The notes under the pieces: generated by a model
Databases searched by the model: none
Told to the model about the DNA's origin: nothing
What the model saw: only the letters and a program-made list of their open reading frames with translations
Origin: Psychroflexus aestuariivivens
GTDB lineage: Bacteria; Bacteroidota; Bacteroidia; Flavobacteriales; Flavobacteriaceae
DNA: 41,607 nt
NCBI RefSeq assembly: GCF_004010055.1
Contig: NZ_RQVT01000043.1
Coordinates: forward strand, 1 to 41,607
Reading direction: 5' to 3'
Made by a program: the position numbers and the translations under genes
Shown: positions 25,532 to 28,277 of the stretch, one piece after another
Numbering within the stretch: position 1 is the first letter of the stretch
How the letters are laid out: each line of letters begins with the position of its first letter

Positions 25532-26740
25532 TTACAATTTTGCAATTTTCTCTTTGTCTAATGAAATTAAATTTTTTGTCATTTCAATTAAATAATCTTG
25601 GAAGTATCTTTTACGTTTATTTTGCGTGTGCGTTAAAACGATAAACACTAAATCTTCATTTGGATGATACTCCAAACCATTCCTGAAACCGTCCCATAAA
25701 CCATTGTGATAAATTATGCGTTCATTGTCCTCGTTTTTTAAGCGGAATCCCATGCCATAATCTGGGTCTTCATTTTTTAGGTCATTACCAAACATTAAAT
25801 CCACGGTTTCTGGTTTTAGGATTTCACCGTTTTTCAGTTTTGTAAACCACATAAACAAATCATTCGAAGAAGCATAAACTCCCTTATCTCCAAAAGCATT
25901 GTTATGAAAACCAGCAGGTAATTTAACGTAAGATCGGCCGTATGGTTGATAACCATTTAGCACCTCTGTTTGGTTTTTTTCATTTAAATTGATAAAAGTT
26001 TCGTCCAGGCAATGCGGTAAGAAGAAAGTATCTTTCAAATAATCTTTCAAAGTCTTTCCTGAAACTTTTTCAACAATGGCGCCTAAAACCACATAGCCAG
26101 TATTGCTATAACTGAAATGCTTACCCGGTGAAAAATTCAACCGATTTTCAAAACTATTGATGAGGTCAATAACTTCCAAATTATCTGGTGCAATTTCAGA
26201 ATCCCAGTATCGCTCGGTGAGATACATATAGTTCCAAAGGCCAGAACGGTGTTTGAGTAAATTTTTTACTGTAATATCTTCAAAACGAAAATCTGGTAAG
26301 TAGTTTTTGACAGGCTTGTTGATATCTATATTGCCTTCTTCATGAAGTTTCAATATAGAAGCTGCGGTAAATTGTTTACTTACGGAAGCCAATTGAAATG
26401 ACATTCCAGGTGTAAGCGGCTCTTTTTTGATAGGATTTTTATAGCCAAAATCTTTTTGATAAATAATTTGGTCTTTATAAGCGACTAAAACGCTGCCGTT
26501 GATGTCATAAACTTTAGCCTTGCGACTGACCAAACTGTCCAAGATTACAGTTTCTTTCTTAAAGACTTTTGCGTAATTTGGAGATTTAACAATTGGTTTC
26601 AGATCGACTAATTCTTTTTGAGACTTAGATTTGTCTTCAGAATTTCCAAATGCAAGACTTTCTATTGTTGAGTATGTAAGAAAAGCAGTAATGCCGATTA
26701 TGCCGATAAACTTAAAAAACTTCTTTTTATTCAATTTCAT
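25532..26740 (-). CDS. Serine hydrolase, class C beta-lactamase / DD-peptidase fold
   Basis: 402 aa with an N-terminal signal anchor (about 10-30). The three active-site motifs of the family are present: S119-V-S-K122 (SxxK nucleophile), Y211-S-N213 and H345-N-G347 (KTG-box equivalent). Such proteins range from esterases to D-amino-peptidases and beta-lactamases; nothing here selects one. It acts in the periplasm or at the membrane. Monocistronic; its 5' region holds inverted repeats (26764-26796, 26813-26825). Confidence 0.85.
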   Translation of the reverse strand: MKLNKKKFFKFIGIIGITAFLTYSTIESLAFGNSEDKSKSQKELVDLKPIVKSPNYAKVFKKETVILDSLVSRKAKVYDINGSVLVAYKDQIIYQKDFGYKNPIKKEPLTPGMSFQLASVSKQFTAASILKLHEEGNIDINKPVKNYLPDFRFEDITVKNLLKHRSGLWNYMYLTERYWDSEIAPDNLEVIDLINSFENRLNFSPGKHFSYSNTGYVVLGAIVEKVSGKTLKDYLKDTFFLPHCLDETFINLNEKNQTEVLNGYQPYGRSYVKLPAGFHNNAFGDKGVYASSNDLFMWFTKLKNGEILKPETVDLMFGNDLKNEDPDYGMGFRLKNEDNERIIYHNGLWDGFRNGLEYHPNEDLVFIVLTHTQNKRKRYFQDYLIEMTKNLISLDKEKIAKL

Positions 26741-26910: not shown

Positions 26911-27648
26911 CTAAACTTTTAAAATAGGGGTTTTTTGCCAATGTGATGCTAGTTTTTGTAACGAACTAAACAAAACATCAAAATTATCAACTACAAAATA
27001 ATCCTCTTGCATAACATCAGTTCTGAATCCTTTTTGAATAATTTGCTCAATGTCGTAATTTAGAAAATTAGCTTTCATCAAATCGATTTGATTGGTTTCA
27101 CCATATGAAGACAAAATCCCAGCACCGTAAGACTTAATTTTATTTTGTTCAGAAATCACTCCAAATTCTATGGTGAACCAATACAAACGCTGCAATTGCA
27201 AAAGTCTTTCTGGTTCACCGATGAATTGACAGCCTAGCTTGCCAAATTCATAGACAAAATCTGAAAATACTGGATTACTCAAAAGCGGAACGTGTCCGAA
27301 CACATCATGAAACATGTCTGGTTCTTCCAAATAATCTAAGCTATTTTTGGCGCGCAACCAAGTTGATGAACAGAACTTTTTTTCAGCTAAAAGTTGAAAA
27401 AAATCCTCTACTGGAATTAAGCCAGGCACAACTTGAAGTTCCCAGCCGTTGTGTTTTGAAAACCAATCATTGATTTTTTCAAAATCAGGAATTTCATCAG
27501 CATTTAAAACTGGTTTCATTCGCTCCAAAGCTTGGATATAAGCGGAAGATGCTTTCTGTGGAATGTTCTTCCTTTGTCTCTGGAATAAAGTTTTCCAAAC
27601 CCATAAATCATCTTGGGTGTAGCTCGTCATTTGTTGTTTATCTTTCAT
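26911..27648 (-). CDS. phhA: Phenylalanine 4-monooxygenase (phenylalanine hydroxylase)
   Basis: Converts L-Phe to L-Tyr with O2 and a tetrahydropterin; non-haem iron enzyme of the cytoplasm. From the ATG at 27648 the protein is 245 aa, normal for bacterial PAH. The iron triad is visible: H114 and H119 in EEPDMFHDVFGHVPLLSNP and E161 in YWFTIEFGVI. The ATG at 27648 is preferred because the upstream in-frame TTG at 27675 lies within a terminator hairpin; an ATG at 27630 is also possible. The leader carries a Tyr-codon peptide and an attenuator, so expression should rise when tyrosine is scarce. Confidence 0.92.
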   Translation of the reverse strand: MKDKQQMTSYTQDDLWVWKTLFQRQRKNIPQKASSAYIQALERMKPVLNADEIPDFEKINDWFSKHNGWELQVVPGLIPVEDFFQLLAEKKFCSSTWLRAKNSLDYLEEPDMFHDVFGHVPLLSNPVFSDFVYEFGKLGCQFIGEPERLLQLQRLYWFTIEFGVISEQNKIKSYGAGILSSYGETNQIDLMKANFLNYDIEQIIQKGFRTDVMQEDYFVVDNFDVLFSSLQKLASHWQKTPILKV

Positions 27649-27656
27649 TTTTGAAC

Positions 27657-27779
27657 AAAAAAAATCCCGATTCAATTGAATCGGGATAGAGTTAAATATT
27701 TATTTAAAAATCACATACTAACTACCGATTCTGGGTGCAGAATTGAATAATAGTAATATGTGTGAATCGTAAATTGCAT
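27657..27779 (-). promoter_or_regulatory. Transcription attenuator of the PAH gene
   Basis: Segments on the minus strand: 1 CGATTC (27769-27764), 2 GAATCGG (27731-27725), 3 CCGATTC (27684-27678), 4 GAATCGG (27673-27667). 1 pairs with 2, 2 with 3, 3 with 4. The 3:4 stem is part of a perfect palindrome (arms ATCCCGATTCAA / TTGAATCGGGAT, 27664-27687) followed by eight T (27664-27657), eight nt before the PAH ATG. The four Tyr codons lie between segments 1 and 2, as in his/trp-type attenuators. Confidence 0.75.
27711..27779 (-). CDS. PAH leader peptide with Tyr run
   Basis: A 22-codon ORF beginning MQFTIHT, with TAT TAC TAT TAT (YYYY) at codons 8-11 (27758-27747), ending ...VVSM with TGA at 27713-27711. 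It starts about 6 nt after a -7 element, so it would be read almost leaderless. Its only evident role is to let ribosome stalling report tyrosyl-tRNA supply. A run of four Tyr codons in such a short ORF directly before a tyrosine-forming enzyme is hard to ascribe to chance. Confidence 0.7.
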   Translation of the reverse strand: MQFTIHTYYYYSILHPESVVSM

Positions 27780-27784
27780 AAATA

Positions 27785-27814
27785 CAAATCTAATTTTTTA
27801 TTTGAATTAGACAA
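27785..27814 (-). promoter_or_regulatory. Promoter of the PAH leader
   Basis: Read on the minus strand: TTG (27814-27812), 19 nt, TAGATTTG (27792-27785), a full consensus match. The start of transcription falls just before the leader-peptide ATG. Confidence 0.6.
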
Positions 27815-27836
27815 ATTCAACTTTTGTTAAATTTGT

Positions 27837-28277
27837 TTATTGCTTGTTATAAACTTCTAGTCGGTTTCCACTTCTGAAAATTTCTAATTCCTCACCTTCG
27901 TTTATTAAATTGAAATTGATATTTTCTTCAGGTTGAGTTGAACTACTTGGCATTAGTAAAATATTTTCTTCATCTATAATTTCCCAATCTCCATTTATTA
28001 TTAAAGCAGTTTCACAATTTGAATTCTCATTTTCAGAAAATGTTGTTTTACTATAAGTCTGATCGGAAACGAACCTATATTCAATGTCTTCTTCACATTC
28101 AATTTGGTTTACAAGTGTTCCGTCCTCTTGATAATAATTTAAACTCCAAGTACCATATAAATCATTACTAACAGTCGGTCCTGATGGGCCGCCATCATCA
28201 TCACTAGAACAACTTATTGTGAATATGGCAACGAGTAATACTAGGCTTGTTAATTTCAATTGTTTAAAATTTTTCAT
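27837..28277 (-). CDS. Small lipocalin-like lipoprotein
   Basis: 146 aa with lipobox FTISC (C23) followed by the acidic SSDDDGG stretch typical of Bacteroidetes surface-exposed lipoproteins. The body (LYGTWSLNYYQEDG, EYRFVSDQTY, LIINGDWEIIDEENILLM) has the G-x-W start and strand pattern of the lipocalin-like families. Two cysteines (ECEED, NSNCET) may form a disulfide. It begins 21 bp downstream of the large barrel gene, so both are probably one transcript. Ligand unknown. Confidence 0.75.
   Translation of the reverse strand: MKNFKQLKLTSLVLLVAIFTISCSSDDDGGPSGPTVSNDLYGTWSLNYYQEDGTLVNQIECEEDIEYRFVSDQTYSKTTFSENENSNCETALIINGDWEIIDEENILLMPSSSTQPEENINFNLINEGEELEIFRSGNRLEVYNKQ

Follow-up and report, generated by a model that had tools for sequence, protein, structure and literature searches.

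What controls the gene for phenylalanine hydroxylase (PAH) in Psychroflexus aestuariivivens, and why does an open reading frame (ORF) of only 22 codons, with a run of tyrosine codons in it, stand together with an intrinsic terminator directly before that gene? We take up this question for a stretch of 41,607 nucleotides (nt) of contig NZ_RQVT01000043.1 (the window, whose coordinates are used throughout), in which the feature lies on the minus strand. A sequence-only reading of this DNA had proposed transcription attenuation controlled by tyrosine, and this proposal gains support from the leaders of relatives, from the alternative pairings of the leader RNA, from the match between leader codons and the product of the next gene, and from the position of PAH as the sole tyrosine-making enzyme recognised in the genome. 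We therefore consider it very probable that the element is a tyrosine-specific, ribosome-mediated transcription attenuator, and we infer from the sequence that it would control the synthesis of tyrosine from phenylalanine.

The leader ORF, MQFTIHTYYYYSILHPESVVSM, can be read from an ATG at 27779 to a TGA at 27711 (22 codons plus stop), and its four adjoining Tyr codons, TAT TAC TAT TAT (27758–27747), are the proposed sensing codons; the ORF is present just as the sequence-only reading had described it. The same is true of the terminator, a perfect hairpin of 10 bp with the loop AATT (27687–27664) and a run of eight T (27664–27657) that ends 8 nt ahead of the PAH ATG at 27648. This hairpin is the one terminator-like site that a scan of 27400–28000 detected (shuffle mean 0.3). 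Its 5′ arm, segment 3 (ATCCCGATTC, 27687–27678), was located from the sequence, the terminator scan and a MAFFT alignment, A1, and would double as the 3′ arm of an antiterminator; its 3′ arm, segment 4 (GAATCGGGAT, 27673–27664), together with the T-run, was located from the terminator scan and covariation. The putative 5′ arm of the antiterminator, segment 2 (GAATCGG, 27731–27725), lies inside the leader ORF, 15 nt past the final Tyr codon, and finds its partner CCGATTC in segment 3, as judged from the sequence and from partner-swap tests (see below). Downstream follows the gene that would be regulated, a short PAH (phenylalanine 4-hydroxylase, 245 amino acids, 27648–26911). Folding of the leader RNA gives z = -5.2 (0 of 200 shuffles equally low), and when the window served as its own control, 4 of 354 segments held a Tyr-rich ORF with a T-run hairpin, two of them being this feature and two lying elsewhere. 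The locus thus unites what would be expected of an attenuator: a candidate leader ORF with a run of the regulated amino acid, a predicted terminator before the gene, and a gene whose product, by family, makes the amino acid of the run.

The comparison with relatives, on which the sequence-only reading had staked itself, found both Tyr-rich ORFs and alternative stems ahead of PAH. The PAH loci compared were the best 80 of 586 confirmed and five further ones, 84 of these 85 having at least 150 nt upstream, and a leader was scored where a short ORF with at least three Tyr in seven codons was followed by a T-run hairpin. Such a Tyr-rich leader with its terminator occurs at 61 of the 84 loci, as against 3 of 1722 segments taken as controls from their flanks. 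Within the genus of the window, 16 of 17 genomes with the short PAH have it. Besides Psychroflexus, the leader-bearing records include, by their titles, Planktosalinus, Fluviicola, Crocinitomix, Flavobacterium gelidilacus, Lewinella and Saprospiraceae. The 61 leaders hold a mean of 3.9 Tyr each, and outside the Tyr run their peptides vary freely. Long PAH-like genes (about 590 amino acids) from other Flavobacteriales had such a leader in 0 of 22 cases. A search of the phylum gave a match at 1e-30 in 68 of 392 genomes, and among the 30 loci listed 27 were new (L082, L084 and L085 being repeats); four of the 31 order- and phylum-search loci examined carried the leader as defined above (L115, L189, L190 and L194), of which L115 is, by leader and coordinates, likely the same record as L014. 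Two records bear unexpected names. One titled Glaciecola amylolytica (CP034120.1, L046) holds a Fluviicola-like PAH with its leader in a complete chromosome, and the organism name may be wrong; another, titled Actinomyces viscosus MAG (CALPVI020000127.1, L039), holds a Flavobacteriales-like PAH with a decayed leader and is probably a mislabelled bin.

If the Tyr run is a sensor, other leaders of this build should be legible in the same way. A covariance model of the leader, R1, was built on the terminator stem only, and its weaker matches in the order include plain terminators; it was searched against 296 genomes of the order, and 30 of the loci matched were inspected. The top four matches are PAH loci, and the other 26 comprise ten His runs before hisG, nine Tyr runs before tyrA, one Ile run before ilvE and six plain terminators without a leader. 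Pfam underlies the naming of one hisG and one tyrA, adjacency to a TyrA match that of seven of the nine tyrA, and similarity judged by eye that of the rest. Among 40 short-PAH genomes, 39 have an R1 match at 0.001, and eight second matches in such genomes fall into four Ile/Val leaders before ilvE, one His leader before hisG, one Phe-Tyr-Trp leader before a DAHP synthase–chorismate mutase gene, and two without a leader. The last-named leader, MMNTNTFYWFWFDFKGSTF (L262), has the run FYWFWF and so joins all three aromatic residues in one peptide, and Ile/Val-rich leaders with terminators stand before branched-chain aminotransferase genes at L255, L256, L258, L259 and L170 (family checked for L259). 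No argument for the Tyr run as a sensor is stronger than this agreement between codon content and the product of the downstream gene. We lean towards regarding the Tyr-only attenuator as one case of a Bacteroidota-wide group of near-leaderless attenuator peptides whose residues announce what the downstream gene makes (Tyr with PAH or TyrA, His with HisG, Ile/Val with IlvE, Phe-Tyr-Trp with DAHP synthase); the Tyr-only attenuator would have moved with whichever tyrosine-making enzyme a lineage uses.

In systems of the TnaC type, a nascent peptide together with a small molecule arrests the ribosome, and the leader studied here might likewise work through arrest by its peptide or by a ligand, be it tyrosine or some other small molecule, instead of reporting the charging of tRNA-Tyr. 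Some PAH leaders of Bacteroidota are indeed conserved peptides and not runs. At four PAH loci of the family denoted f21 (L187, L192, L193 and L189), leaders with terminators have mixed Tyr and His codons and no simple run, their peptides being MNPTPRTYVHHSYHFLQ and near copies of it in three genomes and MNQTYHSYSHYHTSFWG in one. Two genomes of family f22 (L200 and L201) have a Tyr-poor, conserved leader, KCF.L.I.RP...GVGL.CRY, before PAH, the end of which can pair, in a 2:3-like manner, with the terminator arm just ahead of the gene. These cases lend the idea some colour, but the freedom of the peptide to vary beyond the Tyr run in the 61 leaders, and the way in which codon identity tracks the downstream product in the sister leaders, make arrest by peptide or ligand improbable for the leader of P. 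aestuariivivens.

The attenuator reading also calls for stems that exclude one another. Four segments, able to pair 1:2, 2:3 or 3:4, had been proposed from the sequence; segments 2, 3 and 4 are present as claimed, and it is the choice of the first that does not hold. CGATTC (27769–27764) exists and can pair with segment 2, yet it is unused in the minimum-free-energy (MFE) fold, and its pairing is not conserved (mean helix score 6.9 vs 7.4 shuffled, 61 loci), and it was rejected as segment 1. The MFE fold, the partner-swap tests and pair counts instead point to CACATATTA (27762–27754), which overlaps the Tyr codons, with TAGTATGTG (27720–27712), which overlaps the leader stop codon, as its 3′ partner; an inner stem of the 1:2 pairing (27743–27738 / 27733–27728) appears in the MFE fold.

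Because segment 2 changes register between lineages, 2:3 and 1:2 were tested by alignment-free helix scoring with random partner assignments. For 2:3, the stretch after the Tyr run scored a mean of 16.3 with the terminator 5′ arm of its own locus, vs 11.5 shuffled and 15.0 in the best of 2000 swaps; for 1:2, the Tyr-run stretch scored 16.1 with its own following stretch, vs 13.1 shuffled and 15.0 in the best of 2000 swaps. Own partners thus outscore those of other loci in both pairings. The loci are related, hence not independent; in a reduced set with one locus per distinct segment-3 core (n = 20), which lessens the effect of kinship and does not abolish it, the observed value was reached by 5 of 10000 permutations for 2:3 and by 0 of 10000 for 1:2. 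Segment 2 begins 9–21 nt past the final Tyr codon in 60 of 61 loci. The terminator itself covaries (59 sequences), with two-sided changes in eight of nine pairs and 0 of 500 shuffles as high. In a second MAFFT alignment, A2, 73.1% of cells are paired for 1:2, and 1:2 and 3:4 combined stand only moderately above shuffles, of which 7 of 500 do as well in the share of cells paired and 8 of 500 in the covariation score. On the partner-swap tests, though not on the MAFFT pair counts, 2:3 is a credible antiterminator, mutually exclusive with the terminator; 1:2, formed by CACATATTA and TAGTATGTG and not by CGATTC, is likewise a credible anti-antiterminator that would involve the control codons.

Ahead of the leader stands a putative promoter of the Bacteroidota sigma-A type (27815–27785), with TTTG at 27815–27812, a gap of 19 nt and TAGATTTG at 27792–27785. 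The 'consensus promoter' of the sequence-only reading can be kept in this sense and must be given up as a sigma-70 promoter, a type we rejected when a scan for it gave no site on the minus strand at the leader. From the position of the box the transcript is predicted to start at 27780, 1 nt ahead of the leader ATG. The same closeness recurs in relatives: in 48 of 61 cases a perfect TAnnTTTG box stands no more than 50 nt from the leader, and in 41 of these 48 the box is followed after 3–8 nt, most commonly 4 (15 of 48), by the first in-frame ATG or GTG start codon. As a control, 18 of 122 ordinary ORFs (at least 150 codons) have a perfect box within 60 nt, at a spacing of 3–8 nt in four of the 18. 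By inspection, the start codons of the nine tyrA leaders lie 4 nt past a TAnnTT[TC]G box. Leaderless leader peptides occur in a few other bacteria, and we claim no uniqueness for a near-leaderless start. The consensus -7 box of Bacteroidota occupies -12 to -5 (PMC9723704), which would place the leader start codon at about +1 to +5. Bacteroidota lack Shine-Dalgarno sequences, and a minority of their mRNAs is leaderless (5.5% in F. psychrophilum; PMC9723704); a start predicted at the leader ATG poses the question of how ribosomes load on an attenuator that has no 5′ untranslated region.

From this arrangement we infer the start of transcription, translation of the leader, stalling, termination and a response to tyrosine. 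Transcription would begin at or beside the leader ATG. Should charged tRNA-Tyr run low, a ribosome would stall on the Tyr run (segment 1) and leave segment 2 free, so that 2:3 could pair as segment 3 emerges, occupying the terminator arm and allowing RNA polymerase to continue into PAH. With ample charged tRNA-Tyr, the ribosome would reach the stop codon and cover segment 2, and 3:4 would terminate transcription before PAH; where no ribosome has loaded, 1:2 would form, again leaving 3:4 to terminate before the gene. Under assumed ribosome footprints, RNA folded from the front edge of the stalled ribosome, before arm 4 is made, gives 2:3 a probability above 0.5 in 54 of 61 loci, and in 59 of 61 the 2:3 helix lies under a ribosome that has reached the stop codon.

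A simpler account would make the hairpin a constitutive terminator or a stem of the 5′ untranslated region, with the Tyr run a by-product of AT-rich pairing sequence and PAH served by another promoter. The terminator is stabler than the antiterminator at equilibrium, as this account would have it. We nevertheless judge it quite unlikely, given the rate of 3 in 1722 among control segments, the His, Ile/Val and Phe/Tyr/Trp runs that occupy the same place before other pathways, and the perfect -7 box just before the leader in 48 of 61 cases, as against 18 of 122 ordinary ORFs within 60 nt.

The gene is assigned to PAH by family. Its protein matches Pfam Biopterin_H (E 2.5e-44), is the single PF00351 match in the genome, and has as its best NCBIfam match TIGR01267, phenylalanine 4-monooxygenase (248.8 bits, just under the cut-off of 264.75). 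No prephenate dehydrogenase (TyrA) was recognised in this 99.98% complete genome by a search that was positive in 14 of 14 control genomes, and no prephenate dehydratase (PDT) was recognised in it, so that PAH is the only tyrosine-making enzyme found there. This bears out the statement of the sequence-only reading that PAH makes tyrosine and that the logic of the switch fits. The genome appears to lack the prephenate route to phenylalanine, although an unrelated dehydratase is possible, and from the absence of TyrA and PDT it follows that phenylalanine would be imported and hydroxylated. PAH has been proposed to serve biosynthesis in Dyella japonica, Legionella and Echinicola vietnamensis (PMC7311316).

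TyrA is present in 21 of 27 genomes of the genus and absent from six, and PDT is missing from the same six and from one genome that is 86% complete; five of the six keep PAH, all five with the leader, and the sixth has neither TyrA nor PAH. Outside the genus, where 50 of 66 loci were tested (the omitted 16 all being without a leader), 43 of 45 leader-bearing genomes, of completeness not given, have no TyrA above cut-off, the baseline across the order being TyrA above cut-off in 191 of 296 genomes; PDT was above cut-off in 18 of these 50. That the element governs the breakdown of phenylalanine, its Tyr leader reporting a by-product of high phenylalanine or tyrosine use, is most improbable: bacterial PAH has mostly been described as catabolic (PMC7311316), but with expression predicted on Tyr shortage the logic would be inverted, TyrA and PDT were not found in the genome, and the leader is missing from all 22 long PAH-like genes.

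Several results weigh against the attenuator as proposed. In the full RNA the terminator is favoured at equilibrium wherever the ribosome stands, so a working switch would have to be kinetic. Single loci are weak witnesses to the pairings, p of 0.05 being reached by 39 of 61 for 2:3 and by 17 of 61 for 1:2. Pair counts for 2:3 are no higher than expected: 69.1% vs 68.1% shuffled in A1, rising to 71.6% when slid by one column, and 94.0% vs 94.1% shuffled in A2, with no two-sided change. In A1 neighbouring registers slip against one another from lineage to lineage, and in A2 the pairs are nearly invariant. A leader as defined above was missing from 23 of the 84 PAH loci; remnants with fewer Tyr remain at some (L018, L039 and L068) and nothing at others, and the 23 include seven Balneolaceae records. 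Among tyrA genes sampled regardless of R1, a Tyr leader precedes 4 of 20 and none precedes the other 16; the nine tyrA leaders described above came through R1 and are hence biased by the model. Finally, TyrA occurs alongside PAH in 12 of the 17 genomes of the genus that have the short PAH. Two broader ideas were rejected on these counts: that tyrA leaders are widespread, the four sampled all belonging to one genus of family f4, and that TyrA loss generally accompanies PAH in the genus.

Read by eye, three of these 23 PAH loci (L054, L057 and L064) have PAH directly after a DAHP-synthase-like gene and no leader, an arrangement that suggests an aromatic-pathway operon. In the window, the minus-strand neighbours of PAH are a lipocalin-like lipoprotein gene upstream (27837–28277) and a gene for a beta-lactamase-family serine hydrolase downstream (25532–26740), neither with an evident link to tyrosine.

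If the attenuator works as proposed, the leader would be a regulatory sign that PAH makes tyrosine in these lineages, a role of the bacterial enzyme for which the case has hitherto been made with fitness data from a few species (PMC7311316). Tyrosine would extend the range of amino acids to which leader-peptide attenuators respond, and leader codons would offer a readable code for the annotation of amino-acid genes in Bacteroidota.

Ribosome-mediated attenuation is a known mechanism; for its Tyr specificity and PAH target we found no precedent in the open-access literature searched, where no Tyr-run leader before PAH or tyrA came to light (subscription papers and supplements lay outside the scope), in agreement with the sequence-only reading, which knew of no described Tyr-controlled PAH attenuator. 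Rfam gave no match at cut-off in the window. Around the leader there were 21 weak matches, no T-box among them, and Trp_leader (19.5 of 41 bits) and Phe_leader (15.7 of 55 bits) both fell under the gathering cut-off. The Tyr T-boxes of Firmicutes resemble the element as proposed in sensing the charging of tRNA-Tyr in leader RNA (PMC1262725), but T-boxes bind the tRNA directly and need no leader ORF, and a T-box was rejected here for want of a covariance match over cut-off in the window. In Dyella japonica and Echinicola vietnamensis, a biosynthetic PAH described in the GapMind study likewise yields tyrosine from phenylalanine, though the available text of that study describes no regulation (PMC7311316). 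Closer in kinship are structured 5′ elements before hisG and pheA in Flavobacteriaceae, the same family, in which the authors see clues that leader peptides attenuate amino-acid operons; the available text mentions neither PAH nor tyrA (PMC9723704). In Corynebacterium glutamicum, aroR similarly places an aromatic leader peptide (Phe-Tyr-Phe) before an aromatic-pathway operon, at aroF, but is reported to be unresponsive to tyrosine (PMC11802643), whereas the run here is of Tyr only. The nearest likeness is to the trp, his, pheA and pheST attenuators of the E. coli type, which share a leader ORF rich in the regulated amino acid, 1:2/2:3/3:4 stems and a terminator before the gene (PMC11802643); the element described here differs from them in its use of Tyr alone, its PAH target, its phylum, its Bacteroidota promoter, and a transcription start that is predicted to fall at the leader start codon or a few nt away from it.
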